64,000 nucleotides of DNA from Achromobacter xylosoxidans A8. Lineage in GTDB: Bacteria; Pseudomonadota; Gammaproteobacteria; Burkholderiales; Burkholderiaceae_B. The DNA lies in the NCBI RefSeq assembly GCF_000165835.1, contig NC_014640.1, positions 2,728,001 to 2,792,000 on the forward strand, in the 5' to 3' direction. This document shows positions 22,968-61,234 of the stretch, piece by piece (positions within the stretch are counted from its first letter, which is position 1; the number at the start of each line of letters is the position of its first letter). Under the pieces are notes generated by a model. It did no database searches. It worked only from the letters and a program-made list of their open reading frames with translations, and was not told the origin of the DNA. The translations under genes were made by a program, and so were the position numbers.

Positions 22968-22986
22968 ATTAATGATAATTGTTCGC
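22968..22986 (+). promoter_or_regulatory. Fur-box-like site upstream of the ECF sigma factor gene
   Basis: ATTAATGATAATTGTTCGC matches the 19-bp Fur consensus at 13 positions, including the central run TAATGATAAT. It lies 46 bp upstream of the sigma factor start, where a promoter would be. This fits iron repression of the sigma gene, as known for pvdS and orbS. Confidence 0.7.
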
Positions 22987-23032
22987 AATAGATTGAGTTA
23001 TTACAAGTCACGATAAATCTGTATGCGGAGGC

Positions 23033-23560
23033 ATGTCGATGTCCATGGGTACGCAGGGGGCGGGGCTTGGAGACGTTTTCATTGCACATCGGGCGCGGCT
23101 TCGCCGTATTGCGCAAAGAATCGTCGGCACTCCGGAAATCGCGGACGACGTGACTCAAGACGCCTATTTGAAACTCATGGAAGGATCATGCGCTCGCGAT
23201 GTAAGCAAGCCCTATAGCTACTGCTGCCAGGTGGTCCGCAATCTGGCGCTGGACCATTGCCGTCGCCAGGCCGTCGAATCCACATACCGCATCTATACGG
23301 ACGACGGGGAATTGCCACAGGTTGCCGGCGGCTGCGTGCCGGACCGGCGCTTTCAGGAACGCCAGGTGATCGATGCCATCGACCAGATCCTCGGCACCTT
23401 GCCAATCAGGACGCGGCGCGCCTTCGAACTCTACAGGCTGGGCGGCTTTACGCAGCGGGAGGTGGCGCGGCAAATGGGCTGCTCGGCCACGCTTGTGAAC
23501 TTCATGCTCCGCGACGCGACCCAGGCCGTGGCCTGCTGCCGGGATTTGCTGGAGGCTTGA
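23033..23560 (+). CDS. ECF sigma-70 factor, FecI/iron-starvation type, siderophore regulator
   Basis: The protein is 175 residues. Region 2 is seen in 'FIAHRARLRRIAQRIVGTPEIADDVTQDAYLKLME', and region 4 in 'LPIRTRRAFELYRLGGFTQREVARQMGCSATLVNFML', which contains the -35-binding helix-turn-helix. The start has GCGGAGG about 5 bp upstream. A Fur-like box precedes it. Like PvdS and OrbS it heads a hydroxamate siderophore locus, and six TAAA/CGTC promoter-like sites in that locus are its probable targets. The next gene encodes only a DUF4880 stub and not a full FecR-type anti-sigma factor, so surface signalling is unlikely. Confidence 0.92.
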   Translation: MSMSMGTQGAGLGDVFIAHRARLRRIAQRIVGTPEIADDVTQDAYLKLMEGSCARDVSKPYSYCCQVVRNLALDHCRRQAVESTYRIYTDDGELPQVAGGCVPDRRFQERQVIDAIDQILGTLPIRTRRAFELYRLGGFTQREVARQMGCSATLVNFMLRDATQAVACCRDLLEA

Positions 23561-23667
23561 CGGCGCCGCGATCAGGCTGGCGTTGTTGAGCGTTCGTGAA
23601 AGCTATCGCTCATAACTTTTTGCTATACCATAGCGCCACCTGGTCTTCCAGCCGTACGAGGCAGCCT

Positions 23668-23916
23668 ATGCGCGACAACGTGAATCCGAATCAGGATCCG
23701 ATTTGGGATATCGCCTGGTCCTGGGTGTTGCGCCAACACGAACGCGAGAGCTTCGACGCAAATGCCGAAGCCGAACTGGCCCAATGGCTTGCCGCCGACG
23801 CCGCCCATCGCCAAGCCTACGACAAGGCCGGCCGCCTGTGGTTGATGGTGGGCCTGGTTCCTCCCGTCAGCGATATTGACATCCCTGGCTCTGCGGAGCG
23901 CGACGGCCCGGCCTAG
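23668..23916 (+). CDS. DUF4880-only protein (FecR N-terminal cytoplasmic domain, stand-alone)
   Basis: This 82-residue protein consists almost wholly of the DUF4880 segment found at the cytoplasmic N-terminus of FecR/FpvR-type anti-sigma factors ('DPIWDIAWSWVLRQHE...FDANAEAELAQWLAADAAHRQAYDKAGRLWLMVG' spans residues about 8-65). It has no membrane helix and no periplasmic FecR domain. The frame is open upstream to a GTG at 23596; I prefer 23668 because of GAGG before it and because the upstream part has no family likeness. It follows the sigma gene by 107 bp. It may be a minimal anti-sigma/co-activator or the remains of a longer gene. Confidence 0.75.
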   Translation: MRDNVNPNQDPIWDIAWSWVLRQHERESFDANAEAELAQWLAADAAHRQAYDKAGRLWLMVGLVPPVSDIDIPGSAERDGPA

Positions 23917-23956
23917 CCCGCGAGCCTTCTTTCCCGCTGCCATGCCCATCAACGCA

Positions 23957-23985
23957 GTGCCGCCTTGCGGCGCTTGCGTCTTTTT
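23957..23985 (+). terminator. Probable intrinsic terminator after the sigma/DUF4880 genes
   Basis: A 7-bp stem (GTGCCGC with GCGGCGC, 23957-23973, one G-T pair) is followed by a T-run at 23981-23985. It separates the sigma operon from the mbtH operon, which has its own promoter-like site at 24114. Confidence 0.5.
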
Positions 23986-24216: not shown

Positions 24217-24465
24217 ATGTCGACCAGTTGTTTTGACCGCGAGGACGAGACCTTCATCGTCCTCGTCAATCACGAAGAGCAGTACTCGATCTGGCCTCAT
24301 TGGAAGGCAGTGCCCGGCGGCTGGCGAGCCGTCGATGGAGTCAAGGGAGACAAGAAGACCGTTCTCGACTACGTCGAGAAGACCTGGACCGACATGCGTC
24401 CGCTGTCGCTGCGCAAGTGGATGGACGAACAGGCCGCGGCCCGTTCCGACGTCGCGGCGGCCTGA
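24217..24465 (+). CDS. mbtH: MbtH-family NRPS adenylation partner
   Basis: This 82-residue protein has the MbtH core: '[18 protein letters not shown]' followed by 'VPGGWRAV', then '[18 protein letters not shown]' at the C-terminal part. MbtH proteins bind adenylation domains and are needed for their folding or activity, so this one should serve the adenylation domains of the three NRPS below. It is the first gene of the biosynthetic operon; its stop overlaps the thioesterase start (TGATG). Confidence 0.97.
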
Positions 24466-25217
24466 TGTCCAGTTCCACGCATATGCCGGCCATCAATCTG
24501 CTGGCCTTGCCCTGCGCGGGCGCGAGCGCAACCATGTACCTGCGTTGGCGCCGCCTTTTGCCGGAATGGATCCGCGTCGTTCCGGTGGAACTGCCGGGGC
24601 GTGGCGCAAGGACGGGCGAACCTTACGTCGAGGACTTCGCCCAGCTTGTGGCGCAGATCTGCAACGAGCAGGCTGCTGCGATGCAAGGCAGTTACGTCCT
24701 ATTTGGCCACAGCATGGGCGCCTTGCTTGCCCATGCGGTGGCGCAGCGCCGGCATGCGCTGGCCCTTCCCATGCCTGAGGCCGTGTTCGTGTCCGCCAGT
24801 CCCGCGCCTTCGAGTCGGGATCCAGGCCGCTTTGCCGCCATGGACAACGACGCTGCCTTGATGGCCGATCTGCGCAGGCAGGGCGGCACGCCGGACGCGG
24901 TTTTCGAGAACACTGAACTCCTGCGTTTGACCCTGGATTCGCTGGCTGCCGACTACCGCGTCTGCGCGAATTTTCGTTATCTGCCGTCCGATCCGCTGTC
25001 CGTGCCATTGCACGTCTTCGCCGGGCGCCAGGACGACATCGACCCGCAACGCATCGAGGCTTGGCGGCGAGAGGCCCGCCATGCATACACGCTCGATTGG
25101 TTCGATGGCGCGCATTTTTTCATACGCCAGCAGGAACAGAAAGTGCTGGCGACCATCGTGCGCGAGTTGACTCGCCTGATTTCCGGAGTGGGCCATGCAG
25201 CCGCGGCAACTGTCTGA
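24465..25217 (+). CDS. Type II (editing) thioesterase
   Basis: The protein has 250 residues. It has the alpha/beta-hydrolase layout of GrsT/TesA-type enzymes: 'LLALPCAGASATMYLRWRRLL' at the N-terminus, 'ELPGRGARTGEP', 'LFGHSMGALLAHAVA' with the nucleophile Ser about residue 84, 'VFAGRQDDIDP' for the Asp, and 'DGAHFFI' for the His. Such enzymes free stalled or misprimed carrier domains. It overlaps mbtH by 1 bp and the phosphopantetheinyl transferase gene by 23 bp. Confidence 0.95.
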   Translation: MSSSTHMPAINLLALPCAGASATMYLRWRRLLPEWIRVVPVELPGRGARTGEPYVEDFAQLVAQICNEQAAAMQGSYVLFGHSMGALLAHAVAQRRHALALPMPEAVFVSASPAPSSRDPGRFAAMDNDAALMADLRRQGGTPDAVFENTELLRLTLDSLAADYRVCANFRYLPSDPLSVPLHVFAGRQDDIDPQRIEAWRREARHAYTLDWFDGAHFFIRQQEQKVLATIVRELTRLISGVGHAAAATV

Positions 25218-25893
25218 TCTGCTGCCTGCCGGCATCCAGGTGTTCCAGCTTGCGCTGGATCTGGCCGCGCCCCTAGCGGACAGCGACCAGGCTTTGCTGA
25301 GCAGGGAAGAAGCCGAACGAGCGCTGCGCTTTCATCGGCATGGCGACAAGGTCCGCTTCGTGAGCGCGCGCGCGGCATTGCGCAGGCTACTGAGCGCGCG
25401 CCTGAATTGCTACCCCGGGCGCTTGAGGTTCGCGGCCAACAAACATGGCAAGCCGCGCCTGGACGTGGCGTGCTCGGCCGATCCCGCTCCGTACTTCAAC
25501 GTTTCCCATGCCGGCGGCTTCGCCTTGATTGCCCTGTCGGACAGCGTTCCTGTCGGCGTCGATATCGAACGCCGCGATCCGCATTGCGATGTCGCCAGCC
25601 TGTCGCGGCTGGTGTTATCGACGCATGAGCTTGAGTCGCCCGAGGAGCGGCGACTCGACTTCTTCGACTGCTGGACGGCCAAGGAAGCCGTGCTGAAAGC
25701 CTTGGGCCTGGGCGTGGCTGAGCACTTGCAGCGCTTATCGGTGTTTGGGCCCGGGCCCGCCGGGGGAAGCTGCTATGCGCTGCACCGTGAAAACCTGGAA
25801 GGCCCAAACGTGGACGTCCTGCGTCTCGATTCACCGTCTGGTTATGCGGCCGCCCTGGCCTGGCAGCCGGACGCCAAGGGAGGATTGCGATGA
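25195..25893 (+). CDS. Sfp-type 4'-phosphopantetheinyl transferase
   Basis: This 232-residue protein carries both Sfp landmarks: 'VPVGVDIE' (Asp and Glu for Mg2+, about residue 120) and 'FFDCWTAKEAVLKALG' (about residue 160). It adds phosphopantetheine from CoA to the carrier domains of the NRPS. It overlaps the thioesterase gene by 23 bp and the hydroxylase gene by 4 bp (ATGA), so the whole set is translated together. Its presence makes the locus self-sufficient for NRPS activation. Confidence 0.95.
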   Translation: MQPRQLSDLLPAGIQVFQLALDLAAPLADSDQALLSREEAERALRFHRHGDKVRFVSARAALRRLLSARLNCYPGRLRFAANKHGKPRLDVACSADPAPYFNVSHAGGFALIALSDSVPVGVDIERRDPHCDVASLSRLVLSTHELESPEERRLDFFDCWTAKEAVLKALGLGVAEHLQRLSVFGPGPAGGSCYALHRENLEGPNVDVLRLDSPSGYAAALAWQPDAKGGLR

Positions 25894-26867
25894 ATGATCT
25901 GGTGACCCGATTTGAACGCCAGGCGCCGCCTGGATCCGATCTGCCTGCGCTGATCACACCATCCCGTCGCGGCGAGCCGCTGCTGGAGGCCTTGCCGCGC
26001 TTGCGTGACGAAATCGAGACCAAGGTCGCGACGGTCGGTGGCGTGTTGCTGCGCGGCTTCGATGTCCCCTCGGTCGAAGGCTTCCGGGAGTTCGCCGCCC
26101 GCTTTGGCCATCCGCTGTTGAGCTACGAATTCGGCTCCACGCCACGCTCGGCGGTGGGCGGCGGGGTCTACACCGCGACCGAGTATCCGGCCCACCAGTC
26201 CATTCCGCTGCACAACGAACAAGCCTACACGCGCCAGTGGCCGATGAAAGCCTGGTTCCATTGCGTGACCCCCGCCGCAGAGGGCGGCGAGACGCCGATC
26301 GCCGACAGCCGCGCGATCTACCGGCGCATGCCCGCCTCGATCCGGGAACGCTTTGCGGCGGGTGTCATCTACGTGCGCAACTACGGCGACCTCGATGTGC
26401 CATGGCAGCAGGTTTTCAACACCGTCAACCGCGATGAAGTCGAGGCTTTCTGCCGCAAGAACGACATCCAGTGGGAATGGAAGCCCGATGGAGATCTGCG
26501 CACGACCCAGTTGTGCCAGGCCATCGAGACCCATCCCGTCACCGGCGAGGTGGTCTGGTTCAACCAGGCCCATCTCTTCCATATTTCCAACCTGCAGCCC
26601 GAGGTGCGCGAGTCCCTGGTCGAGTTGCTGGGCGTGGAGAACGTGCCGCGCAACACCTGCTTCGCGGACGGATCGCCGATCCCCGACGCGATGCTCGACG
26701 AGGTGCGTGCCGTGCTGGATGCAGAAACCGTCAGCTTCAAGTGGGAACAGGGCGACGTCACGATGCTGGACAACATGCTGGTCGCCCATGCGCGTTCGCC
26801 CTTCAAGGGACCACGCAAGGTGGTCGTGGCCATGGCCGAATCCCACGGCAACCTGGACAAGTTCTAA
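25890..26867 (+). CDS. TauD/SyrP-family Fe(II)/2-oxoglutarate dioxygenase, probable aspartate beta-hydroxylase
   Basis: The protein has 325 residues. The metal ligands are His and Glu in 'IPLHNEQAYTRQW' (about residue 109) and a distal His in 'MLDNMLVAHARSPF', followed by the 2-oxoglutarate-binding Arg in 'GPRKVVV'. This is the SyrP-like group, stand-alone enzymes that hydroxylate carrier-bound aspartate in siderophores such as ornibactin and malleobactin. The second adenylation domain of the locus has an Asp code, so beta-hydroxyaspartate at position 2 is the natural inference. The NRPS has no extra interface condensation domain, which points to the type that acts directly on the thiolation domain. 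Confidence 0.9.
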   Translation: MNDLVTRFERQAPPGSDLPALITPSRRGEPLLEALPRLRDEIETKVATVGGVLLRGFDVPSVEGFREFAARFGHPLLSYEFGSTPRSAVGGGVYTATEYPAHQSIPLHNEQAYTRQWPMKAWFHCVTPAAEGGETPIADSRAIYRRMPASIRERFAAGVIYVRNYGDLDVPWQQVFNTVNRDEVEAFCRKNDIQWEWKPDGDLRTTQLCQAIETHPVTGEVVWFNQAHLFHISNLQPEVRESLVELLGVENVPRNTCFADGSPIPDAMLDEVRAVLDAETVSFKWEQGDVTMLDNMLVAHARSPFKGPRKVVVAMAESHGNLDKF

Positions 26868-26893
26868 ACGCATTGCCGAACAAGAGAACCCTC

Positions 26894-29800
26894 ATGACGA
26901 ATTCGCCTGTGCCGCAAGAGAAATTTGTTCATCCCGAGAATTTTGTCGACGGCCTGCGCCAGCTGGCTGCAGACCGGCCCGAGGACGTCGCGCTGACGGT
27001 GGTCGCGGGTCGGGAAGGCGAAATCGTCGAAACGGTCTTGACCTATCGCGCCTTCGCGCAGCGCGTGCTGGCGCTTGCCGCCTTGCTGCAAGCGCGCTAC
27101 GAGAAGGGCGACCGGATACTGATCCTGCTCGACAACGATGAATACTATGCAGTCAGCATGTTTGCCTGCTTCCATGCCGGTGTGATTGCAGTGCCGGCGT
27201 TTCCGCCCGAATCCGCGCGGCCGCAGCACCTGGCCCGGCTTGCGGGGATCGTGGAGGACTCTCAGGCGCGGGGTGTGCTGACGACAGGCGCGTTACGCGC
27301 GTTGGTCGGGGAGGCGGCGCGCCAGTTCGACATGTTGGATATCGTGGCCGTCGACGAGGTCGATCCAGCCGAGGCCAGCCGCTGGCAGCCGCAAAGGCCG
27401 GACGGCGCCGACGTCGCCTTCCTGCAGTACACCTCGGGGTCCACTTCAGCACCCAAGGGCGTGATGGTGACGCACGCCAACCTGATGGCCAATGAGCGCG
27501 CCATCCGCGAAGGACTCTCGATCGGCGCCGGCGACAAATTCGGCGTGTGGTCGCCCTTGTTCCACGACATGGGCCTGATCGGCGGACTGCTGCAGCCTTT
27601 CTACAGCGGCATCCCCTGCGTGCTGTCCTCGCCGCGCTTCTTCCTGGAGCGCCCCGTGCGTTGGCTCGAGATGATCTCGCGCCATCGGATAACGATCAGC
27701 GGGGGGCCGGACTTTGCATACCGGCTGTGCCTGGACCGGGTCAAGGATGCCAACTGCGAGGGATTGGACCTGTCGAGTTGGCGCGTGGCCTACACCGGCG
27801 CCGAGCCGGTGCGGCAAGACACGATGGAAGCGTTCGTCGAACGTTTCGCGCCCATGGGCTTCAGCGCCGGCGCCGTTTACCCCTGCTATGGTCTGGCCGA
27901 GGCGACGCTGTTCGTCACGGGAGGGCGCCGCGGAAGCGGCATGGCGGTGGGCCGCTATGACAATGAAGCGCTCTCAAAGCGGCTCGCGGTCGCCCAGGCC
28001 GATGGTGCGGCATTGGTCGGCTGCGGCAGCGCCGCCCCGGGGCACGAGTTGCGTATTGTCGATACGCAGTCCGGCGAGCCCGCCGCTCAGGGCGCCATCG
28101 GCGAGATCTGGGCTGCCGGCCCCAGCGTGGCGGCAGGATATTGGAACAACCCGAGCGATAGCGCCGAGACCTTCGTCGAACGTGATGGCCATAGATGGCT
28201 GCGCACCGGGGACCTGGGCTTCGTAGACGGCGGCGAACTTTTCGTCGCGGGCCGGCACAAGGACATGATCATCGTCCGCGGACACAATCTGTATCCGCAG
28301 GACATCGAACGAGTGGTGGAAGAGGAGGTGGAGGCCGTACGCAAAGGCCGGGTAGCGGCCTTTGCTGTGGAACTCGACGGACAGGAAGGTATAGGCGTCG
28401 CGGCCGAGGTGTCGCGCGGTTTGCAGAAGCTCGTGCCGCCGCAGGCTCTGGTCGATGCGCTGGGCGCAGCGGTGAGCGGGCAATGCGGCGAGGCACCGAG
28501 AGTGGTTGTGTTGTTACAGCCAGGCGCGTTGCCCAAGACTTCCAGCGGTAAGCTGCAACGCACCGCTTGCCGCAAAGGATGGGCCGAGCGCACGCTCGAT
28601 GCCTACGCGCTGTACGAGAGCGGGCGCTTCTTGATGGGCGGGGACATTGGCGAGGCGGCTGTGGATGGCAGAAATGCCCTCCCGGAAGATCAGATCCAGC
28701 CGTTGGCGAACGTTTGGCGCGACGTTCTCGGGCACGAAACGGCACGGCGGTACAGCAGCGACGCGCACTTCTTCACGCTGGGTGGGAATTCCCTGGCGGC
28801 GATGCAGTTGGCTGCACGCATCTCGCAAACTTGGGAAACCGACTTCCCGGTCCGGCAGGTTTTCGAATCGCCGCGGTTGGGCGAACAGGCTGCGGCCTTG
28901 CAGACCTGCCTGCAAATCGGGTCGCGCAAGCCTTTTGCCGGCATCCCCGTGCTGTCTGCGGAATGCCGCTCCAAGCCTCTGCCTCTGTCGTCTGCCCAGC
29001 AGCGGCAATGGTTCCTGTGGCGGCTGACCCCCCACAGCACCGCATATCATGTTCAGGGCGCGCTGCGTATTGCGGGCTTGCTGGATGTCGATGCCTTGCG
29101 TGCGGCCGTAGCTGGTTTGATCACGCGTCACGAGACGTTGCGCACCATATTCCGCGCGCGGCCGGATGGCGAGGCGGAGCAGATGGTGCTTCCTGGGGGA
29201 ACCCTGGAGCTCCAGGTAGTCGACCTGCGCACCGTGACGAGCGCGGAGCGCGACGCGCAGGCTGCGCAAACGCTGCGCGCATTCCTGGCGCCGCCCTTCG
29301 ACTTGACGGCCGGCCCCTTGGCGCGGGCAGCGCTGATGCGACTGGACGATCAGGTCCATGTACTGGCGCTGGCGATGCACCACATCATTTCGGATGGCGC
29401 TTCGATGCAGGTCTTGGTCGACGACCTGGCTGCGTTGTACGCGGCAGACGAGGCGCTGCCCGCCTGCTCAATTCAATATGCTGACTATGCCAGTTGGCAG
29501 CGCGACGATGCCGTGCGGGACGCTCAGGATCGCCAGTTGGCGTATTGGGTGGAGCAGCTCGCCATGCCCTCGGGCGAGTCACAGCCCGGCCTGGCTCTGC
29601 CTGCCGATCATCCCCGCCTGCCGGTTGCCCAATATCGGGCAGGATTGCACACCTTCGAACTCCCGGCCGAGCTGCTGGCTGCCCTGCGCTGCCAGGCCGA
29701 AGTCCATGGCGCCACTCTGTTCATGGCGTTGTTGGCCTCCTTGCAGGCGCTGTTGCACCGCCATACCGGGCAACGGGACGTCCGCGTCGGTGTGCCTGTT

Positions 29801-32155
29801 GCCAACCGCCCGCGAGCGGAGCTGCAGGGCGTGGTGGGTATTTTCGTCAATACGGTGGTATTGCAGAGCGATATCGAGATGCGTCAGAGCCTGGCGCAGG
29901 TGCTGGCACAGGTCCGGGAGCGCGTGCTGGGCGCGCAGGCAAATCAGGAAGCGCCATTCGAGCAGGTCGTCGAGGCGTTGCGGCCGGCGCGGAGCGCAGG
30001 CACCGCGCTGCTTTTTGACGTGATGTTCAACCATTCGCGGCGGGACTACTCGCAACTTCAACAGCGGTCGGGCTGGCGAGTGACTGAAGAGCCCACGGGG
30101 AATGAGCATGCGCAATTCGAGTTGGCCGTAGACACGGTCGAAGATGTTGACGGACGCCTGGTTGTGACCTTCCGCTATGCGGTGGAGCTGTTCGATGCCG
30201 CGACCATCGCCCGGATGGCGGGGCATTATGTGGCGATGCTCGGGGCGCTGGCTGACGCGCCAGAGCAGGCGGTGGGCGATGTGAAGCTGTTGAGCGACGC
30301 GGAGGGACGCAAGCTCAGGGCCTGGGGTGAGAGTCCACTACGATCTTCCAGGATTGAGCCGGTTCACCGGCAGATCGAGCAACACGTGCGCGCTCATCCG
30401 CGGACCGTGGCCTTGTGGTTCGGCGAGGAGAGCGTGAGCTATGAGGAGCTCAACCGCCGCTCCAACCGTCTGGCGCACAGGCTGATCGGCCTGGGTGTCA
30501 AGCCGGAGACGAGAGTAGGCATTGCCATGGAGCGCTCCATCGAGATGGTGGCGGGGTTGCTGGCGATCTTGAAGGCGGGAGGCGCCTACGTTCCGCTGGA
30601 CCCGGAGCTCCCGGCCGAGCGGCTGGAGTACATGTTGGAGGACAGCGGTATCGAGCTGCTGCTTACGCAGAGCGGGATCCGTGGCCGGCTACCCGCCGAC
30701 AAGAGGCTGCAGGTGCTGGAGGTCGATGCGCTCGATCTCGGCGGCGAGCGGGAACACGACCCCGGCGTGGCCGTGCACGGAGAGAATCTGGCGTACGTGA
30801 TCTATACCTCGGGTTCCACGGGCAGGCCCAAGGGAGCGGCGATCCGCCATCGGTCGCTGGCGATCTGCATGAGCTGGATGCAGCAGACCTATGGCCTGAC
30901 CGCCGAGGATGTCGTGCTGCACAAGGCGCCGTTCGGGTTCGACGTGTCTGTCTGGGAGATATTCTGGCCGCTGACGACTGGCGTTCGGTTGGTGGTGGCC
31001 GCGCCGGGTGACCACCGTGAGCCCGAGCGGATAACGGCACTGATTCGTCGGCACCAGATCACGACACTGAACTTCGTACCGGCGATGCTGCAGGCCTTTC
31101 TGGCGCATGAAGGCATCGAGACGCAGACGCGGCTGCGGTACGTGATGTGTGGCGGCGAGGCCATGTCCGCGGCCATGCAGAGCGAGGCGCTGCGCCGGCT
31201 CAGGGGTGTGAGCCTGCAGAACTTGTACGGCCCGACAGAGACGACCATCCACGTGACCCAGTGGAAGTGCCGGGACGACGGGCAAGGTCGGGTGCCGATC
31301 GGAAGGCCGATCGCCCAAACCAAATCCTACGTACTGGATGCGTCGCTGAATCTGGTACCGCAAGGGGTAGAGGGCGAGTTGTACATCGGTGGCGATCTGC
31401 TAGGCCGCGGCTATCTGGGTCGACCGGGTTTGAGTGCGGAGCGCTTCGTGGCGGACCCGTTCGACGAAACCGGCGGCCGGCTGTATCGCACGGGGGACCT
31501 GGCGCGGTGGAACGGGGAGGGGCAGCTGGAGTTCCTGGGCCGGACGGATCATCAGGTGAAGATCCGCGGCTTGCGGATCGAGCTGGGGGAGGTGGAGGCG
31601 CAGTTGCTGGCCCTGCCTGAGATTCGCGAGGCGGTAGTGGTAGACAAGGGTGCCCGACTGGTCGCCTACGTGTCACTGGCGGCGGAAAAGATGCTCGATG
31701 TGCGCGAACTGCGCGCTCGGCTTGCCCGGGTGCTGCCGGACTACATGGTGCCTGGAGTGATCGTTTCAATGGAATCCTTGCCCCTCAACGCCAACGGCAA
31801 GGTGGATCGCCGCGCCTTGCCGGAACCCGAAACGCCGTCCTTCCCGATATTCGAGGAGCCTGCGGGTGAGGTGGAGGCAGTGCTGGCGCAGCTCTGGAAC
31901 GAGGCGCTCGGAGTCGAGTCTGTCGACCGCAATGACAACTTCTTCGAGCTGGGCGGGCATTCGCTCATTGCGGTCCGGATGGCGGCGATTCTGGCGAATC
32001 GTTATGCATTCGAGGTCCCAGTGCGCATGTTCTTCGAAGCCCCGATCCTGCGGGACTTTGCGTTGCGCCTTTCGGAGCAAGGGACGCCCGATGCAGGTTC
32101 GCGGCAGGACCGACTTGCGCTGATGCACAACCTGATGAGCGAATTCGAGGTTTGA
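26894..32155 (+). CDS. NRPS 1: fatty acyl-AMP ligase - carrier - C - A - carrier
   Basis: The protein has 1753 residues from the ATG at 26894; the longer open frame upstream overlaps the hydroxylase and is not used. Domains: fatty acyl-AMP ligase about 20-570 ('[19 protein letters not shown]' near 176, '[15 protein letters not shown]' near 549); carrier ('LGGNSLAA' near 629); condensation about 688-1130 ('HHIISDG' near 828); adenylation about 1160-1640 ('[12 protein letters not shown]' near 1302); carrier ('LGGHSL' near 1686). By alignment with GrsA the pocket residues read D-V-W-N-M-G-L-I-H-K. This is nearest to threonine codes by memory, but by position and likeness to module 5 could be (formyl-)hydroxyornithine. 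The ligase start resembles pyoverdine PvdL and means the peptide is built on a fatty acid. It loads residue 1. Confidence 0.93.
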
Positions 32156-50063: not shown

Positions 50064-50843
50064 TCATTGACCGACGATCCTGTCTGCCGACTTAGACTCA
50101 GCCCGATGCTCCGGCGCCAAGGGGCACGCACGGCAATGGCTGTGACCGGGTAAGCGGTAGTAAAGGCAGCATTGGCGGTGTAGAAGGAGGGGCGCAGTGA
50201 CGCCATTTTCAGCGACCGGAGAGGTGCGTCGTGGGGAAAAGAGAGGATTGAAGGAGCCGTCCGGGCGCGTCGGATGCAGAAGCAAGGCTTGCTTGTCCTG
50301 GGCGACGTGTTCGGCGTTGCCGGTCAACGCTAACGCTTGGTCGAGTATGGCCTCCAGATAGCGGGCCGTGTTTCCCCAGAGAATTTTCTGGGCAAGGCGG
50401 GTCTGTCGGCTGATGGCCTTGAACAGCGGATCGAGGTGCGCGTCCAACAGGGGCGCGTAGCGGACCGCTGGCGGGGCGGCCTGCGCCGGGCCGCCCTCAT
50501 GGAGGATGTGAAAACGGATGGGAGCGCCGAAATCGCTCAGACTCAGCGCGACGTCGTCAGCCCGCATTGGGAAGGTGTGCCGCAGTACGCTTGCCGCAGC
50601 GGCAGTCGCCGGCAGCAAGGCCCACAGATAGTCGAGGCTCCAAGCCGAGGCGGCAGCGCGCAGGCCCTCGCCCGAGACCTTCAGATGCGCGGCGTAGCGT
50701 CGTATCGTATCGCCGAGCAGTTGGTCGCTGCCTAGCAGATGCGCGACGGAAATCGCCCCGGCCGGCCATTCAGCAGCGCAACTCAGCGTCTCTGCGTGGA
50801 CAGCCCGGTCTCCCTGGAATAGGGGAGAGAGCCGGGGAATCAT
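50064..50843 (-). CDS. fhuF: Siderophore-iron reductase, FhuF family
   Basis: The protein is 259 residues, close to the FhuF length of about 260. The C-terminus has the [2Fe-2S] pattern Cys-Cys-x10-Cys-x2-Cys in 'RQCCLYYRLPGHSHCRACPL'. It reduces Fe(III)-hydroxamate complexes in the cytoplasm to free iron after uptake. The start at 50843 has GGGAGGCGGCG before it, and the longer frame upstream runs into the receptor gene. It follows the receptor stop by 25 bp, so receptor and reductase share the promoter at 53150-53174. Confidence 0.93.
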   Translation of the reverse strand: MIPRLSPLFQGDRAVHAETLSCAAEWPAGAISVAHLLGSDQLLGDTIRRYAAHLKVSGEGLRAAASAWSLDYLWALLPATAAAASVLRHTFPMRADDVALSLSDFGAPIRFHILHEGGPAQAAPPAVRYAPLLDAHLDPLFKAISRQTRLAQKILWGNTARYLEAILDQALALTGNAEHVAQDKQALLLHPTRPDGSFNPLFSPRRTSPVAENGVTAPLLLHRQCCLYYRLPGHSHCRACPLAPEHRAESKSADRIVGQ

Positions 50844-50868
50844 CGCCGCCTCCCGGGCATGATGAGGC

Positions 50869-53094: not shown

Positions 53095-53149
53095 CGGGGA
53101 GTCAAATAGAAGAGGGGAGTGGCACAACGCGGACACAAGCAGCTATCTA

Positions 53150-53442: not shown

Positions 53443-55653
53443 TCAAAAGCGATATCTCGCGTTGAGCACCGCGGTTCGCTCCTGGCCGTACAGGCATTGG
53501 TTGCCGTCTCCGACTGCCTGGTAGCAGGTAGCGACATACTCCTTGTTTGCCAGGTTCTGTACATTGAGCGCGAAGCGCCAGGGCCCGGTCTCGTATTGCA
53601 GGGCCGCGTCGAACAGCGTGTACGACGGCGTTTTCGACGCGTTGGCCTCATCGCGATAGGTGGATCCGACATACCGCGCGCCGAACCCGATGCCCAGGCC
53701 GCGCAATATGGATTCCTGCAGGCGGTAGTGCAACCAGGTCGATGCCATTTGCTTGGGCGTTGCGGTCGGCACCTTGCCTTGTTCGACACCATTTCCTTTG
53801 GTGATCTTGACCTTGTCATACGTATAGGTCGCAACGAGGTCCACGCCGGGCGCCAGGTTGGCTTTCGCTTCCAGTTCGAGGCCGCGTGACCTCACGGCGC
53901 CATTCTGTGTCTGAAAGTCGGGGTTTGCCGTGTCTACCGTCAGCGCGTTGGTCTTGCGCAGGTCATACAAAGCGACTGTGTACAGACTGCTTCCGTTGTC
54001 CGGAGTGAACTTGATACCCACTTCGTATTGCTTGCCCTCCGTCGGCTTGAAGGGCGCGTTGTTGGCATCGCGCCCAACGGTCGGCAGGAACGACTCGGCG
54101 TAACTGACGTAGGGTGTCCAGCCCGTGCCTGTGAGATAGTTGATCCCGAAGCGCTTGGTGAACTTATTGTCTTTCTGCTCGGTCTCGGTGTCTGCCAGGT
54201 AATCGAGGAATTTCAGAGTCGTCCAGTCCATGCGGCCGCCCAGCGTGATCAGCCAGTTTGGCGTCAATTTCACCTGGTCTTGCACGTATAGGCCCAGTTG
54301 CCGCAGACGCTGCCTGGAATCATCGAAATCCGGAGTCGGCGACACCGTCACGCGCTGGCCATAGACCGGGTCGTAGATGTCCAGAGGCCCGGTCTCGCCC
54401 GTATAGGCCCGGCTGTGGTAATTCTGCTTCTCGGCATCCAGGCCGAGCAGCAACGTGTGTTCGATACTGCCGGTCTTGACCTGGCCCTCGATCTGCGTGT
54501 CGATGGCGATCTGTTTGCCATCCTCCTTGAACTCGCGAAGCCGGCGTTGCAGCGTCCTGCCGTCGTCTTCCAGGCTGCGCGAGGTGATACGACGATAGGT
54601 CACGTCGACATCGGACAGGCGAGTATTCTGGCGCACGGTCCAGGCGCCGTTCAACTTATGCTCGAAAAGGTAGCCGACCGAAGCCTGGTCGTGGTCAAAA
54701 CCCGTGTATTTGGGTTCGCCCACGAGCAGGGACTCGGATTTCCGGGTCGATGCTCCGGGCGGCGCGTAGCGGAACGCAAACCCGTCATTGCGATCGCGCA
54801 GGAATTCCGTCAATAGCGTCAGCGACGTGTCCTGGCCAAGCTTCCAGGTGAGAGACGGCGCCAGATACAGGCGCGTGTTCGACACCTCATCGCCAGTGGA
54901 ATACTTGTCCTGCGTGTCGGCGCTCATGCCTAGGCCGATCACGCGGTACAGCACCCGTTCCTGTTCATCCACTGCGCCGCCGATGTCAATCCCAAGCTGA
55001 CGGCTATCGCGGTTGCCGATCTGAACTTCCATTTCGCGTGGGGAATCAGCGGCGGGACGCTTGCTGACGCGGTTCACGATTCCGCCCGCGTCGCCTTTCC
55101 CATATAGCACCGATGCGGGGCCAAGCAGGATCTCTAGACGCTCCAGCCCGTAGGGCTCGCTGCGCTGATTGGCGAATCCGTTCGCGTTGGTATTCATCCG
55201 CAGGCCGTCCTGATAGAGCGAAGTGCCGATGCCGGAGAAGCCGCGCAGGTTGATCCAGTCGTCCTGTCCGCGCGTGTCGGCGCCGTTCGTCTGAGTGACC
55301 ACGCCAGGCACGTACCGCAGCGCTTCGACCACGGACAGGGCGCCGCGATCGTCCAGTTCGTCCCGGCCAATGACGGAAATGGACTGTGGTACTTCGGTAA
55401 TGGGGGTATTGGTCTTTGTGCCGGTCAGGCTGCGTTCGGCGACGTAGCCGGGTACTGGGCCGGTGGCGGATTCCTGGCGTGCTTCCACTCTGACTGCCGG
55501 TAGTGTGACCGCAACGTCCGATTGCCTTGATTCCTGCGCCTGTGAGGCTCCCGTGAAGGCGAGGCTTAGCAGGCCGGCCTGGACGGCGCGGAGCATGGAG
55601 AAAAGATGAGGGGCTATTTGTTTACGTATCCACTGCTGGTGCTGAGCTTCCAT
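53443..55653 (-). CDS. TonB-dependent ferric-siderophore receptor 2
   Basis: The protein is 736 residues with a signal peptide ending near residue 40 ('LLSLAFTGASQA'), a plug domain starting about residue 70 and a barrel ending in 'LNARYRF'. It is strongly similar to receptor 1 over the whole length (many runs of identical residues in the plug), but differs more in surface-loop stretches. It likewise lacks an STN domain. Its gene has its own promoter-like site at 55755-55779 and is followed by the decayed fhuF copy. It may take up the same siderophore or a variant form. Confidence 0.95.
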   Translation of the reverse strand: MEAQHQQWIRKQIAPHLFSMLRAVQAGLLSLAFTGASQAQESRQSDVAVTLPAVRVEARQESATGPVPGYVAERSLTGTKTNTPITEVPQSISVIGRDELDDRGALSVVEALRYVPGVVTQTNGADTRGQDDWINLRGFSGIGTSLYQDGLRMNTNANGFANQRSEPYGLERLEILLGPASVLYGKGDAGGIVNRVSKRPAADSPREMEVQIGNRDSRQLGIDIGGAVDEQERVLYRVIGLGMSADTQDKYSTGDEVSNTRLYLAPSLTWKLGQDTSLTLLTEFLRDRNDGFAFRYAPPGASTRKSESLLVGEPKYTGFDHDQASVGYLFEHKLNGAWTVRQNTRLSDVDVTYRRITSRSLEDDGRTLQRRLREFKEDGKQIAIDTQIEGQVKTGSIEHTLLLGLDAEKQNYHSRAYTGETGPLDIYDPVYGQRVTVSPTPDFDDSRQRLRQLGLYVQDQVKLTPNWLITLGGRMDWTTLKFLDYLADTETEQKDNKFTKRFGINYLTGTGWTPYVSYAESFLPTVGRDANNAPFKPTEGKQYEVGIKFTPDNGSSLYTVALYDLRKTNALTVDTANPDFQTQNGAVRSRGLELEAKANLAPGVDLVATYTYDKVKITKGNGVEQGKVPTATPKQMASTWLHYRLQESILRGLGIGFGARYVGSTYRDEANASKTPSYTLFDAALQYETGPWRFALNVQNLANKEYVATCYQAVGDGNQCLYGQERTAVLNARYRF

Positions 55654-55987: not shown

Positions 55988-56821
55988 ATGGCGAAGACGA
56001 AGCTGGTTTACGTTTGGTCCTTGAGGAACGCCGCAGCCGACAGAGCCGGGCAGCACGTTGAATACAAGGGCGGGCGGCGCTATATGAAGTCGCCGCTGGA
56101 GTACCTGGTCGAGGCGCTGGATGGGACTGGACTGGGCGACGCCTACTCGCTGGAAGCGGTCATCTTCGACGACGACGAGGGGTCGCCCAGGGATCGGGAA
56201 AGCGTCGGGAACTATGGTTTTTCATATCGGCCAGGCGGGCAATGGTTCTACCCGCCCACGCTCGAGGCGGGCGGCCGACGCGTGAACGATCTGTTGTGCG
56301 CCGTCCCGTCCACCTACCGGAGATTGCCGCTGGGCGCGGCGGATCGTCCCGCAGGCAAGCGGGCCTTCGAGGCGCGCTTGCTGGACAAGCTATTGACGCT
56401 GGGCGCCGAACTGGTGGTGTTGGATGGCCTGCTGGTCATACTGGACGAGCTGGTGCGTCCTGGCGCGGCGTTCCATCGCAAGATTGTCAACATCCATCCC
56501 GGGATCACCAGGATCGAATCTCCGTATGAACGCCGGGGGGCCTACGCGACGCTGGACGCGCTGTACGGGGCGCGCGGACAAAGGGTAGTGAATTGGCAGA
56601 CGGTCGAAACGAAGCAGGTGCCGGTGGTGGAAATGACCGGGGCGTCCTTTCATTACGTCGACAACGGCATTGATTCGGGCGAAGTGATCCTGGATGTACT
56701 TAATACGCGCATCGACCCGCAGGACACCATTCTGGAACTGCGCTGGAACAACTTTAACAACAGCTTGTTTCCGGCTTTGCATCAGGGGCTGGCGCGCATG
56801 GCCGGACTGGGCGTGGCATAA
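55988..56821 (+). CDS. N5-hydroxyornithine formyltransferase (PvdF-like)
   Basis: The protein is 277 residues, close to PvdF. It has the formyltransferase core: 'VNIHPGITRIESPYERRGAY' (about residues 164-183), which supplies His of the Asn-His-Asp catalytic set, and 'FHYVDNGIDSGEVI', which supplies the Asp. It moves a formyl group from N10-formyltetrahydrofolate to N5-hydroxyornithine, giving the hydroxamate ligand used by the NRPS. It heads an operon with the acylase gene 67 bp downstream. Confidence 0.92.
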   Translation: MAKTKLVYVWSLRNAAADRAGQHVEYKGGRRYMKSPLEYLVEALDGTGLGDAYSLEAVIFDDDEGSPRDRESVGNYGFSYRPGGQWFYPPTLEAGGRRVNDLLCAVPSTYRRLPLGAADRPAGKRAFEARLLDKLLTLGAELVVLDGLLVILDELVRPGAAFHRKIVNIHPGITRIESPYERRGAYATLDALYGARGQRVVNWQTVETKQVPVVEMTGASFHYVDNGIDSGEVILDVLNTRIDPQDTILELRWNNFNNSLFPALHQGLARMAGLGVA

Positions 56822-56888: not shown

Positions 56889-59396
56889 ATGGTCTTCGTA
56901 TGCCGGTTGTGGGTGGGACGGAGTGCAACTGCTGCGCGCGCCTGGGTACTGATACTCTGCGCGGCGCTATGGTTGACCCAAGGGGCGCACGCAGAGACGC
57001 ATGGGCCCGCCGTTCGGCTAGGGACGGAAGGTGTCGAGATCCGGCGCACCGCGGACGGCATTCCCCATGTGCGGGCGGGAAGTTGGCAGGAACTCGGAGT
57101 CGGCGTCGGCTACGCGCAAGCCCAGGATGCCTTGTGCACGCTGGCCGAAGCCTTTGTCACCTACGAGGGGCGTCGTGCCTGGTTCTTCGGGGCCGATGAA
57201 CGTCCGGCGCGGGATTCCACCTTCGGGCGCCCAAAGAACATCGATCTGGATTTTTTCTTTCGGGCTTATGCTGACGCGGAGGTGGTGACCCGCTACCGCG
57301 CTCAGCATCCGCCAGAATTGAATGAGCTCGTCGAAGGATTCGCCGCCGGATACAACCGCTATCTATCCGAGGCCCGCGCCGGGCAGGCCTCGGCAGTCGG
57401 CCGGTCTTGCCTGAATCAACCCTGGGTGCGCGATATTGCGGCCGACGATGTTCATCGGCGCATGTATGCGGCCCAGATCGCAGCTGGCTACGCCAAGTTC
57501 ATTACCGAGATGGCCAATTCCACACCGGCGGCGGCAGCCTCTGCCGCGCGCGCCGGTGAGGAAGGCGCCGCAGCCCTGCGCGGCAGGTTCGTCCAGAGGA
57601 TTGGCGCGCAGCCCGGCATCGGCAGCAATGTGTTGGCCTTTGGGAGCGAGGCCACGGGCGGCGACGGCGCGGTGTTGTTCGGCAATCCGCACTGGTATTG
57701 GGGCGGGCCGGACCGCTTCTACCAGATGCACCTGACCATTCCTGGCAAGGTCGACGTGGCGGGCGTCGCCTTTCTGGGGCTACCGATGGTGATGATAGGT
57801 TTCAACGGCCAGGTGGCCTGGAGCCATACGGTGTCCGAGGCGCGCCGTTTCGGGCTGTTCGACTTGACACTGGACCCCGCCGATCCGACGCGGTATCGGG
57901 TCGACGGAAAGACTGAGGCGATGACGGCGCGAGAAGTGGCCGTCGAGGTGCGCGCCGAAGACGGTAGCGCGCGGCGCCTGACGCGTACCTTCTATCGAAC
58001 CCGATTCGGGCCGGTGGTAGACCTGGGCGGACTCGACGCGGCCTTGGGTTGGGGATCCACCCATGCCCTGGCGATTCGCGACGTGAACGCCGACAACTTT
58101 CGCATCTTCCGCAATTTCTTCTATTGGAATCAGGCGAAGTCCCTGGATGACTTCATCGATATCCAGCGCCGCGAGGCGGCTGTGCCATGGGTCAATACCG
58201 TGGCCATAGGCCGCGGTGATCAAGGCGTCGACGGCCGGGTATGGTACGCCGACGTGGGCGCGGTACCCAATGTCCCGGACGAACTGCGCCAGGCTTGCGC
58301 GACGCCGTTGGCGGCGGGTTTCGCGAGCGTGGATCCGCTGACGCCGGTCCTTGACGGCAGTCGCTCGGATTGCGATTGGCGGCTCGATCCGGCCGCAGCG
58401 CAGGCGGGCGCCATGCCGGTTGCGGCGATGCCCTGGCTGCTGCGCAAAGACTATGTGGCCAACATGAACGACAGCTATTGGCTCAGCAATAGCCGCCAGC
58501 CGCTGGAGGGATATCCCGCGCTGCTCGGCGGCGAGCGCCGGCCGCTAGGGCTGCGGGGCAGGCTGGGGCACCGCATCGCGCTCGACCTGATCCAAGCGCA
58601 GCCTGGATCGGCTGAAACCTTGAGTATGCGTCTGATGCGGGATGTGTTGACGCCCCGGGCCTATTCCGCCGAGTTGTTCAAGGATGAGGTGCTGGCGCAA
58701 GCGTGCGTACGGCCGGAGGTTGAACTGGATGCCGACGCATTGGCAGCGGCGGGGGCGGGCGGACGGCGGCAGGGGACCTTGGCACCGCGCACGGTCGACG
58801 TAGGTCGGGCCTGCGACATCCTGCGCGGCTGGCAGAACAAGGCCGACGGCAATGACCGTGGCGCTTTGCTGTGGGAAGCATTCTGGGCCCGACTGGAACA
58901 GATCCCGGCGGAGAAACTCTATGGCGTCGCGTTTTCCAGCGACGCGCCTCTGGATACCCCTGGCAGGCTGCGCGCGGGTCAGGTAGCGGCGGCCAAGGCC
59001 TTGGCAGCAACGGTGCTGGAGTTTGGCGACAAAGGGTGGCCGCTGGATGGGGCGTTGGGAACACGTCGCTATGTGGCCAGCGGCGGACGACACTATCCGA
59101 TCTATGGCGGATGCCACTCCGCAGGCTATTTCACCGTGGCCTGCAATGAAGATCGCAGCGACCGGATAGGGCTGGATACTTTGGGGAATAGCTATCTCCA
59201 GGTTGTGCGCTTCAGCCCGTCCGGCGTGCAGGCGCACACGCTGCTTGCGCACGGCCAGGATGAAAACGCGGTGGCTGACGGTCAGGGCTCGGGGCCGGTG
59301 GTGCGATATGCCCGCAAGGCCTGGCTGCATTTCCCATTCCAGGATAAGGACATCGAGCGCGATCCGGCGCTGGACCGGTTGCGCTTGTTTCCTTGA
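56889..59396 (+). CDS. PvdQ-like Ntn-hydrolase acylase (penicillin/AHL acylase family), periplasmic
   Basis: The protein is 835 residues. A signal peptide ends at Ala-His-Ala (residue 35). The alpha-chain part 'VEIRRTADGIPHVRAGSWQELGVGVGYAQAQDALC' follows. Self-cleavage is expected before Ser246 in 'QPGIGSNVLAFG', making Ser the N-terminal nucleophile of the beta chain; 'VLFGNPHWYWGGPDRFYQMHL' and 'QVAWSHTVS' come after, as in the family. PvdQ removes the fatty acid from the acylated pyoverdine precursor in the periplasm and also cleaves long-chain acyl-homoserine lactones. With the fatty acyl-AMP ligase start of NRPS 1, the first role is the likely one here. It is about 70 residues longer than PvdQ as I recall it. 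Confidence 0.92.
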   Translation: MVFVCRLWVGRSATAARAWVLILCAALWLTQGAHAETHGPAVRLGTEGVEIRRTADGIPHVRAGSWQELGVGVGYAQAQDALCTLAEAFVTYEGRRAWFFGADERPARDSTFGRPKNIDLDFFFRAYADAEVVTRYRAQHPPELNELVEGFAAGYNRYLSEARAGQASAVGRSCLNQPWVRDIAADDVHRRMYAAQIAAGYAKFITEMANSTPAAAASAARAGEEGAAALRGRFVQRIGAQPGIGSNVLAFGSEATGGDGAVLFGNPHWYWGGPDRFYQMHLTIPGKVDVAGVAFLGLPMVMIGFNGQVAWSHTVSEARRFGLFDLTLDPADPTRYRVDGKTEAMTAREVAVEVRAEDGSARRLTRTFYRTRFGPVVDLGGLDAALGWGSTHALAIRDVNADNFRIFRNFFYWNQAKSLDDFIDIQRREAAVPWVNTVAIGRGDQGVDGRVWYADVGAVPNVPDELRQACATPLAAGFASVDPLTPVLDGSRSDCDWRLDPAAAQAGAMPVAAMPWLLRKDYVANMNDSYWLSNSRQPLEGYPALLGGERRPLGLRGRLGHRIALDLIQAQPGSAETLSMRLMRDVLTPRAYSAELFKDEVLAQACVRPEVELDADALAAAGAGGRRQGTLAPRTVDVGRACDILRGWQNKADGNDRGALLWEAFWARLEQIPAEKLYGVAFSSDAPLDTPGRLRAGQVAAAKALAATVLEFGDKGWPLDGALGTRRYVASGGRHYPIYGGCHSAGYFTVACNEDRSDRIGLDTLGNSYLQVVRFSPSGVQAHTLLAHGQDENAVADGQGSGPVVRYARKAWLHFPFQDKDIERDPALDRLRLFP

Positions 59397-59467
59397 GGTC
59401 GGCGTGGAAATGGCCGGACGGCGGCGTTGCGATCAAACGTGGCTTTGCCGTCTACGTGTCTGCTGCC

Positions 59468-59493
59468 TAAACAAGATGGACAGCTGGCCCGTC
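59468..59493 (+). promoter_or_regulatory. ECF promoter of the ABC exporter gene
   Basis: CCTAAACAAG (TAAA 59468-59471), an 18-bp spacer and CGTCTAG (CGTC 59490-59493) lie 79 bp before the exporter start, inside the 176-bp gap after the acylase gene. It matches the other five sites. Confidence 0.68.
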
Positions 59494-59572
59494 TAGGTGT
59501 GGACGGTTCCAGCAGCCATGACCGTATGCGTGGCGTCCACGTTCCTCCCTATCTCCGTTCGAGGCGATCCCC

Positions 59573-61234
59573 TTGCTTTCCTACCTGATTCGACAGTCGC
59601 GCAAGCTGCTGGCCGCCGCGGCAGTGGCCAGCGTCGCCAACGGCGTGTGCAGCGTGCTGCTGCTCACGCAGATCAATGCGGCCTTGACCGCCTCCTCTTC
59701 GGCTGAGCGCGCGGCGCTGGCGTGGCGCTTTGCCGCGTTTGCGCTGGCGGCGATGTTCAGCCAGATGACGGCTTCGGTGCTGTTCGAGCGCCTGAACCAA
59801 CGTGCGCATGCCGATCTCCGGCGCTTCATTTCCGCGCGCGTGATCGCCGCGGACTACCGGCGGCTGGAGGAGATCGGCGGTCCCAAGGTGCAATCGGCGT
59901 TGTCGGAGCACAGTGCGAGGGTGGCGGATTTCTTCGTGAGTTTCCCGACTATCCTGGTCAACGCCATCATCGTGGCGGGATGCCTGGCCTACATGGCCTG
60001 GCTATCCTGGCAGGTCTTCCTGGCGGCCGTGCTGGTCATTGGCCTGGGGTCGCTGGGCTATCACTTGGCACATTTGCGGGCGATCCGGCATCTGGACGTA
60101 GCCTCGAAGGAGCAGGATCGCCTGTTTGGCCATTTCCGTTCGCTGATCGAAGGGGCCAAGGAGCTGCGCCTGCACGCCGCCAAGCGCCGCCGCTTCTCCG
60201 GCGACGTGCTGGGCCGCTCGATCGAGACGGTGCGGCGCGAGCGCGCGCTCGGCATGTCGATCTTCCTGGTGTCATCCGCCTGGGGCAACTTCTTGCTCTA
60301 CGGTTTCATCGGGCTGACGCTGTTCGCGCTGGTGGGCGATGTACCCGACCGGGCCAGCATCGTGACCGGCTTTGCGCTGATCTTCGTCTACATCGTGGGC
60401 CCTCTGGAAAACCTGCTGATCGCCTTGCCGCGCGCCAACCTGGCTCGGGTGTCCGGCGCGCGCATCGACGAGATCACGGCGCAGCTCGAACATGGCGAGG
60501 ACGAGGCCGCGCCTGTCGCGGCAGAGAGCATGACCCGCTTGGCGCTGCGCGGAGTTAGCCACCGCTATTACCACGAGGGCACCGACGACCTGTTTACCCT
60601 CGGGCCGATAGACCTGGATTTCTCCCCGGGGCAGATCACCTACCTGGTCGGGGGCAATGGCAGCGGCAAGACTACGCTGGCCAAATTGCTGGCCGGCCTG
60701 TATCGGCCGGAGCAGGGCGCCATCCTGCTCAATGGCGAGCCGGTGGACGACGCCAGCCGTGACCGCTATCGCCAGATCTTCTCGACGATTTTCTCGGACT
60801 TCTACCTCTTCGAGCACATGCTTGACGCCGCCTCCGCCGAACTGGACGTGCAAGGCAATGCCCTGTTGGAAAAGCTACATCTGCAGCACAAGGCACAGGT
60901 GCGCGACGGCGCCTTCACTACGCGCGCCTTGTCGCAGGGTCAGCGCAAGCGCCTGGCGCTGGTGGTGGCCTATCTGGAGGATCGGCCCTTCCTGTTGTTC
61001 GACGAATGGGCCGCCGATCAGGATCCGCTGTTCAAGGAAGTGTTCTACCGCGAACTGCTGCCGGAACTGCGGGCGCGCGGCAAGGCGGTACTGGTGATCT
61101 CGCACGACGACCGCTACTTTCATCTTGCCGATCGCCTGATCCGGATGGAAAACGGTCAGGTCGTGGCGGTCGAAACTCCGGCTGGGCGCAAACCGGTGAA
61201 ATCGGCACCCGCCGAGCTGGCCGCCGCGCAATGA
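59573..61234 (+). CDS. PvdE/SyrD-like cyclic peptide ABC exporter (fused membrane + ATPase)
   Basis: The protein is 553 residues. The N-terminal ~310 residues have six membrane helices; the ATPase follows with Walker A 'GGNGSGKTTL' near residue 360, signature 'LSQGQRKRLAL' near 453 (Ser-Gln replaces the common Ser-Gly, a trait of this subfamily), Walker B 'FLLFDEWAADQDP' near 472, and 'ISHDDRYF' H-loop near 509. I accept the TTG start at 59573 because GAGGCG precedes it by 7-8 bp and the first helix begins at once. PvdE moves the acylated precursor from cytoplasm to periplasm; the same role fits here, feeding the PvdQ-like acylase. Confidence 0.93.
   Translation: MLSYLIRQSRKLLAAAAVASVANGVCSVLLLTQINAALTASSSAERAALAWRFAAFALAAMFSQMTASVLFERLNQRAHADLRRFISARVIAADYRRLEEIGGPKVQSALSEHSARVADFFVSFPTILVNAIIVAGCLAYMAWLSWQVFLAAVLVIGLGSLGYHLAHLRAIRHLDVASKEQDRLFGHFRSLIEGAKELRLHAAKRRRFSGDVLGRSIETVRRERALGMSIFLVSSAWGNFLLYGFIGLTLFALVGDVPDRASIVTGFALIFVYIVGPLENLLIALPRANLARVSGARIDEITAQLEHGEDEAAPVAAESMTRLALRGVSHRYYHEGTDDLFTLGPIDLDFSPGQITYLVGGNGSGKTTLAKLLAGLYRPEQGAILLNGEPVDDASRDRYRQIFSTIFSDFYLFEHMLDAASAELDVQGNALLEKLHLQHKAQVRDGAFTTRALSQGQRKRLALVVAYLEDRPFLLFDEWAADQDPLFKEVFYRELLPELRARGKAVLVISHDDRYFHLADRLIRMENGQVVAVETPAGRKPVKSAPAELAAAQ

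Follow-up and report, generated by a model that had tools for sequence, protein, structure and literature searches.

Building a siderophore on an acyl chain that is afterwards clipped off is a plan with a precedent in pyoverdine and apparently another in crochelin. Pyoverdine synthesis (PvdL/PvdE/PvdQ) relies on lipid-primed assembly, a PvdE-family exporter and a periplasmic N-terminal nucleophile (Ntn) acylase (PMC6206403), and counterparts of these three features are predicted for the locus described here. For crochelin, PMC10587159 refers to the original paper (Baars 2018) when it credits PvdQ-type acylases with a part in siderophore maturation, and it reports that the acylase GdnD deacylates glidonins in a Burkholderiales strain; contrary to this crochelin deacylation precedent, PMC12904278 places crochelins among the lipopeptide siderophores. 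In ornibactin the acyl group resides on the side chain (N5) of ornithine (Orn)-1 (PMC5681537), and variochelin keeps its acyl group (PMC10999976). The present analysis concerns a siderophore locus at positions 23033-61234 of a 64,000-nucleotide stretch of Achromobacter xylosoxidans A8 (NC_014640.1, positions 2,728,001 to 2,792,000; the whole stretch is hereafter the window). We consider it likely that this locus encodes a non-ribosomal peptide synthetase (NRPS) pathway primed by a fatty acyl-AMP ligase (FAAL), whose lipopeptide product is deacylated in the periplasm prior to release.

Pfam and NCBIfam scans located within 23033-61234 all of the parts named in the initial annotation, which had proposed an ornibactin-like peptide core combined with pyoverdine-like, lipid-primed periplasmic maturation. 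Taken as a whole that interpretation was partly supported, lipid priming followed by periplasmic deacylation being the best reading. Not included in it were the MbtH-like protein, the epimerization (E) domain after aspartate (Asp), a dual-type condensation (C) domain in module five, the presence of five modules, the terminal thioesterase (TE), a type II TE and a 4'-phosphopantetheinyl transferase. The features that would build, tailor, export and deacylate the product are as follows, with A denoting adenylation, T thiolation and ACP an acyl carrier protein.

25890-26867 (+): TauD-type enzyme, probable Asp beta-hydroxylase (PF02668, 167.7 bits)
26894-32155 (+): NRPS 1, FAAL-ACP-C-A1(DVWNMGLIH)-T, from domain mapping and code alignment
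26921-28570 (+): FAAL domain (lipid priming), bounds approximate, from FAAL matches in the PDB and PRK05691 (769.8 bits)
32160-39986 (+): NRPS 2, C-A2(Asp)-T-E-C-A3(Ser)-T, from domain mapping and codes; E motif FNYLG
39986-47344 (+): NRPS 3, C-A4(DGEDHGTVT, Orn/Lys)-T-C(dual-type)-A5(DVWNIGLIH)-T-TE, from domain mapping and codes
48640-49926 (-): probable L-ornithine N5-hydroxylase (PF13434, 408.9 bits), ATG at 49926
55988-56821 (+): probable hydroxyornithine formyltransferase (PF00551, a weak match of 30.9 bits against a cut-off of 26.1; position conserved)
56889-59396 (+): Ntn acylase, PvdQ/MacQ-like and secreted-looking (PF01804, 354.7 bits; MacQ match, 687.9 bits)
59573-61234 (+): PvdE-family peptide export ABC transporter (TIGR01194, 447.9 bits against a cut-off of 286.2)

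The domain order of the assembly line is FAAL-ACP-C-A1-T / C-A2-T-E-C-A3-T / C-A4-T-C-A5-T-TE, corresponding to FAAL-ACP-(fOHOrn)-(D-Asp)-(Ser)-(Orn/Lys)-(fOHOrn)-TE, where fOHOrn is formyl-hydroxyornithine, and thus to five residues; the most probable start of NRPS 1 is 26894, which leaves 26 bases between it and the TauD gene. Alignment to a segment of GrsA yielded the codes DVWNMGLIH, DLTKVGHVG, DVWHVSLID, DGEDHGTVT and DVWNIGLIH for A1 to A5, bearing out the Asp and Ser codes of the initial annotation. Among published assignments, DVWNIGLIHK is one of the codes for modified ornithine, DGEDHGTVTK belongs to Orn domains and DGEDHGTVVK to Lys domains, and DLTKVGHVGK stands for Asp/Asn (PMC12283262), while DVWHVSLI stands for Ser and the DGEDHGTV of a pyoverdine module had its best match in a Lys domain (PMC3207962). 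The window codes agree with these assignments, which supports the peptide predicted from them. The Asp module comprises a GGDSI carrier and the E domain, and the C domain of module five carries the motif HHMLEQQGD, which we take to resemble the dual E/C motif, so that residue 4 may be D-configured. The TauD-type enzyme, with HNE at 108 and His 300, matches the Asp beta-hydroxylase originally annotated; it shares 71% identity with the enzyme in the DelD position at the head of the Delftia locus and 81% with its counterpart in Azotobacter chroococcum, and neither of its two PDB matches has a siderophore name. DelD, the delftibactin beta-hydroxylase, is reported to be a standalone enzyme that yields L-erythro-OH-Asp (PMC11472818), a residue that an E domain would convert to D-threo. 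The ornithine hydroxylase and formyltransferase were likewise recovered; as the PF13434 family spans Lys and Orn hydroxylases, the substrate Orn is assigned to the former from the A-domain codes.

From these elements we infer acyl-fOHOrn-D-OHAsp-Ser-D-(Orn/Lys)-fOHOrn, with three bidentate ligands, as the product. The enzymes, their order, the catalytic residues and the recurrent association of the genes can be read from sequence, whereas the product, its stereochemistry, the acyl chain length, secretion of the acylase and deacylation are predictions. In the proposed pathway the FAAL would load a fatty acid onto the ACP, and NRPS 1-3 would then assemble acyl-fOHOrn-D-(beta-OH)Asp-Ser-D-(Orn or Lys)-fOHOrn, with the two tailoring enzymes adding the hydroxyl and formyl groups to Orn and the TauD-type enzyme adding the beta-hydroxyl group to Asp. 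The TE would free the lipopeptide and the PvdE-family exporter would carry it to the periplasm, where the putatively secreted Ntn acylase would cleave the N-terminal amide; the resulting water-soluble, hexadentate siderophore would exit the cell, and its iron would be retrieved by the receptors and the FhuF-type reductase.

The opening of NRPS 1 by a FAAL, as first annotated, was upheld, the protein having an N-terminal fatty acyl-AMP ligase and an ACP ahead of its first C domain, the arrangement of FAAL-primed NRPSs. Its PDB matches include 7r7g (434.2 bits, named polyketide synthase), 3kxw, FadD32, FadD23 and FadD28; some of its PDB relatives, though not the two best, are named long-chain-fatty-acid--AMP ligase. 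The match to NCBIfam PRK05691, which we take to be a PvdL-like model, runs over residues 10-628 and model positions 4-612 of 4334, and so covers a small part of that model, for which the cut-off at full length is 4090. The annotated PvdE-like exporter exceeded its model cut-off, but membership of so broad a family as TIGR01194 is a weak pointer to pyoverdine.

The association of the acylase with the other parts is conserved across genomes. We annotated 83 loci, 81 of them with an acylase (one being the window's own): in 42 of the 81, one or more further members of the set lie within about 10 kb, and in 39 no other member does, a PvdE homologue lying within reach in 35 and an ornithine hydroxylase in 29. 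Nine of ten acylase genomes picked from the best matches gave a FAAL-bearing match to NRPS 1, the exception being G004, a metagenome-assembled genome. At thresholds of E<=1e-150 for the acylase and E<=1e-120 for the FAAL, six genomes in a family sample of 151 have the acylase and nine the FAAL, with the FAAL present in all six acylase genomes (Fisher p 9e-8, own genome removed and kinship ignored) and on the same contig in four (the window's own genome, G071, G087 and G126). Among 43 Achromobacter genomes, the acylase is present in three and the FAAL in nine; all three have both (Fisher p 0.007, own genome included and kinship ignored), although in G176 the FAAL is cut.

Three family genomes, G011, G085 and G110, bear a FAAL while no acylase reaches the E<=1e-150 threshold. 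In G085, which is another Achromobacter, the FAAL locus (L128-L130) includes a TauD gene and Asp codes, and a genome-wide search at that threshold found no acylase; it is a natural contrast within the genus. In G011 no Asp or TauD part was present in the stretch covered. G110 (L131-L133) is not a clean acylase negative, since a weak acylase match (398 bits) and a PvdE-like gene lie approximately 4-9 kb beyond its FAAL NRPS; this NRPS has Thr codes, no siderophore tailoring gene was noticed in 60 kb, and the locus perhaps specifies a deacylated non-siderophore lipopeptide. The FAAL/acylase locus of Noviherbaspirillum aerium (L097-L098) has two amino-acid modules only, a Ser-type one and one with the code DVWNIGLIH, a small number if the product is a hexadentate siderophore, unless further modules are supplied in trans.

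A number of observations weigh against lipid priming followed by deacylation. The acylase and FAAL lie on separate contigs in two of the six family genomes (G013 and G078), and no outer-membrane exporter was noticed in the locus. The acylase scored 514.1 bits against the NCBIfam PvdQ model (NF051460) and did not reach its equivalog cut-off of 950, and in the PDB it matches 5c9i best (687.9 bits), with PvdQ next at 379 bits. In P. citrulli DSM 17060, where species and architecture indicate an acidobactin-type locus, the locus begins with a FAAL, yet acidobactins elute at 2-9% acetonitrile and are hydrophilic (PMC4598715), so that a FAAL alone is no proof of a long lipid. Delftibactins C-F, with C12/C14 tails, share one backbone with the tail-less delftibactin A (PMC11472818), such that in Delftia the lipid may be partly kept, or lost without a linked acylase. 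Finally, the variochelin locus was the sole lipid-keeping control checked.

The strongest alternative is that some or all of the secreted product still carries its lipid, with the acylase setting the balance between amphiphilic and soluble forms. Both the delftibactin series and the existence of lipid-keeping FAAL siderophores such as variochelin speak for it; an obligate step, however, fits better with the adjoining acylase and exporter genes and with a siderophore clade of acylases kept over many genera, and we regard this alternative as improbable. Five FAAL loci, picked from acylase-search genomes and hence each from a genome that holds an acylase somewhere, were annotated for contrast alongside that of A. 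chroococcum. No acylase above 60 bits was found in 60 kb around the FAAL of the variochelin locus, which speaks for deacylation in the window given that variochelin keeps its lipid. None was found on the 58.6-kb contig of P. citrulli, and none on a 35-kb contig of D. acidovorans NBRC 14950 that covers part of the locus only; the FAAL loci of V. boronicumulans CC172 and Cupriavidus pampae do have the acylase. The initial annotation had set the predicted product apart from the betaproteobacterial lipopeptide siderophores that retain their lipid; this fits variochelin, but many betaproteobacterial loci have an acylase gene neighbouring their siderophore genes.

The identity of the acylase bears on a second alternative, namely that it is a quorum-quenching enzyme acting on N-acyl-homoserine lactones (AHL) and located in the locus by chance. 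Its nearest structure, 5c9i, we take to be MacQ. MacQ is an AHL acylase. PvdQ itself is bifunctional (PMC6206403). The annotated PvdQ-like acylase proved to be an Ntn acylase by Pfam family and residues, and not a PvdQ by the NCBIfam model. Ser1, His23, Asn269 and Arg297 of the beta chain, to which we presume the usual catalytic roles, are identical in all 95 aligned rows, including the window enzyme, MacQ and PvdQ, and Val70 is kept in 93. By eye, the N-terminus is signal-peptide-like (hydrophobic at 18-29, AHA|E at 33-36), and the enzyme is predicted to be secreted. A tree was built by a quick method with SH-aLRT support only, from 95 rows of which 93 are distinct (WIN/L003 and L042/L112 being counted twice); two other penicillin-amidase proteins of the same genome (L001 and L002) were too distant and were kept out. 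Siderophore-linked labels were set by hand from locus annotations, L142 being included and L111 left unlabelled. The window acylase falls in a 46-row clade (support 100) that contains 45 of the 47 siderophore-linked rows plus one unlabelled row from Bordetella (L061), while L038 and L110 fall outside it. MacQ belongs to a second large clade (45 rows, support 99), in which no row is siderophore-linked; one of its members, L083 from Xenorhabdus indica, adjoins NRPS modules. The label requires 4 changes on the tree as compared to 32.1 in shuffles, and the position of PvdQ is unsure because its branch is very long. On this tree the AHL reading was rejected, and a nearby LuxR-type gene is shared by three congeners that lack the acylase; we assign this reading a very low probability. 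Equally hard to credit is a FAAL that loads a short or hydrophilic acid, leaving nothing to clip and the acylase with another target, as P. citrulli would suggest, since the P. citrulli locus is without an acylase whereas FAAL loci with one recur, and long-chain-fatty-acid--AMP ligases figure by name among the FAAL's PDB relatives. Synthesis as a lipopeptide with deacylation in the periplasm remains the preferred and probable reading.

Within Achromobacter, three of the 43 sampled genomes have the acylase, two of them at this site, and one of these two is without the NRPS part. The flanks are separated by 39100 bases in the window. They were paired by contig in 19 genomes (own genome among the 19), and in 14 of these the gap is 61-2286 bases; distances elsewhere are 4674 in G170, 24130 in G166 and 14944 in G174, the latter two having other content. 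In the 24 genomes without flank pairing, absence of the locus was taken from the acylase search. Insertion of the locus would fit these data better than repeated loss. In G176 (C2:6963000-6978700; L149, L150) the same site is occupied, with outer flanks 89-90% identical, and there is no counterpart of window positions 27787-55741, so that the NRPSs, hydroxylase, reductase and receptors are gone; the acylase, the exporter, a shortened formyltransferase (242 of 277 residues aligned) and a cut FAAL are retained. The genes kept show dN/dS values of 0.06-0.20, the acylase being the least conserved of them (79.7% identity over aligned residues).

The remaining features of the locus are assigned to regulation, accessory functions and iron uptake.

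23033-23560 (+): ECF sigma factor (PF04542/PF08281)
23596-23916 (+): small DUF4880-only protein (PF16220, a weak match of 25.2 bits against a cut-off of 25)
24217-24465 (+): MbtH-like protein (PF03621, 70.8 bits against a cut-off of 27)
24465-25217 (+): type II TE (PF00975), ATG at 24465
25195-25893 (+): 4'-phosphopantetheinyl transferase (PF01648, PF22624)
47563-48133 (-): third TonB receptor, a remnant interrupted by in-frame stops, found by tblastn using the two neighbouring receptors
50064-50846 (-): FhuF-type siderophore-iron reductase (PF06276; TIGR03951, 118.9 bits against a cut-off of 63.85)
50869-53136 (-): TonB-dependent siderophore receptor 1 (TIGR01783, 408.7 bits against a cut-off of 223.5)
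53443-55653 (-): TonB-dependent siderophore receptor 2 (TIGR01783, 405.8 bits)

The sigma factor scored below every NCBIfam FecI-like cut-off and is assigned to the iron type from its context. DUF4880 is presumably of the FecR N-terminal type, and the small protein that follows the sigma factor resembles a FecR N-terminus without the remainder. Receptors 1 and 2 are 77% identical, the receptor remnant lies between NRPS 3 and the hydroxylase gene, and the start of the reductase was chosen by eye in an open reading frame that extends to 51077. Three proteins searched against PADLOC gave no match. Just outside the locus, at 20935-21648, is a LuxR-type gene with an autoinducer-binding domain, SdiA-like but below the SdiA model cut-off; it was rejected as a locus member as it lies beyond tRNA-Ala and occurs in congeners G161, G164 and G196 without the acylase. 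A search of the genome for LuxI found no match, but was uninformative, as the control gave none either.

No published description of this locus was found in the literature covered, mostly open-access journals, and a metallophore-mining paper makes no mention of PvdQ or an acylase. The peptide is probably new, the acylate-then-clip strategy is not. A chromophore-free pathway together with FAAL loci with and without the acylase would allow the purpose of the lipid to be separated from chromophore maturation. The acylase is also a candidate marker for predicting soluble versus amphiphilic secretion of FAAL siderophores. We tentatively suggest, at somewhat less than even odds, that acylation followed by deacylation is a general siderophore strategy beyond pyoverdine, with an acylase clade recruited apart from PvdQ and the module gained or lost among FAAL loci. 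On that view, and since no chromophore is made by such loci, the lipid would have its role in assembly or export and not in chromophore maturation. The main interest of the locus is as comparative material on why such siderophores become acylated.

In comparison with ornibactin and malleobactin, the first three residues (fOHOrn, D-OHAsp, Ser) are predicted alike and the sigma factor, hydroxylase and reductase are shared, so the ornibactin-like core of the initial annotation survives in this respect; membership of that group was rejected, however, as the window has five modules and a TE and would not make a tetrapeptide. It further differs in having a FAAL, which would acylate the alpha amine and not N5, and no C-terminal amine module or side-chain N-acyltransferase was noticed. 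Pyoverdine differs in that the window codes lack the Glu-Tyr-Dab chromophore precursor, and PvdM/N/O/P-type genes were not noticed in the locus, although no dedicated search was made. The variochelin locus of V. boronicumulans NBRC 103145, which we take to be the producer strain, is likewise FAAL-primed with OHAsp and hydroxamates, and its domain codes fit the published structure. Delftibactin shares the FAAL start, a named formyltransferase and N-hydroxylase, and OHAsp, but is made by a hybrid polyketide synthase (PKS)-NRPS. A close counterpart is in A. chroococcum DSM 2286 (L094-L096), a locus inferred from species and architecture to make crochelin, the published strain presumably being NCIMB 8003. 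It differs by a PKS (KS-AT-KR-ACP) after module 1, by Ser and Thr codes, and by an upstream hydroxylase homologue that is only 49% identical; the PKS step in crochelin gives a gamma-amino acid, and there is no room for it in the window, where NRPS 1 and NRPS 2 are only 4 bases apart. This locus, together with PMC10587159, overtakes the suggestion in the initial annotation that this exact set was not known from a described system, and the FAAL and acylase plan, as judged from gene content, is found again in other Betaproteobacteria. The A. chroococcum locus shares with the window a FAAL-first NRPS, the TauD-type enzyme, the type II TE, the formyltransferase, an acylase 69% identical to that of the window, a PvdE-type exporter, an Asp module with an E domain, a final DVWNIGLIH module and the TE.

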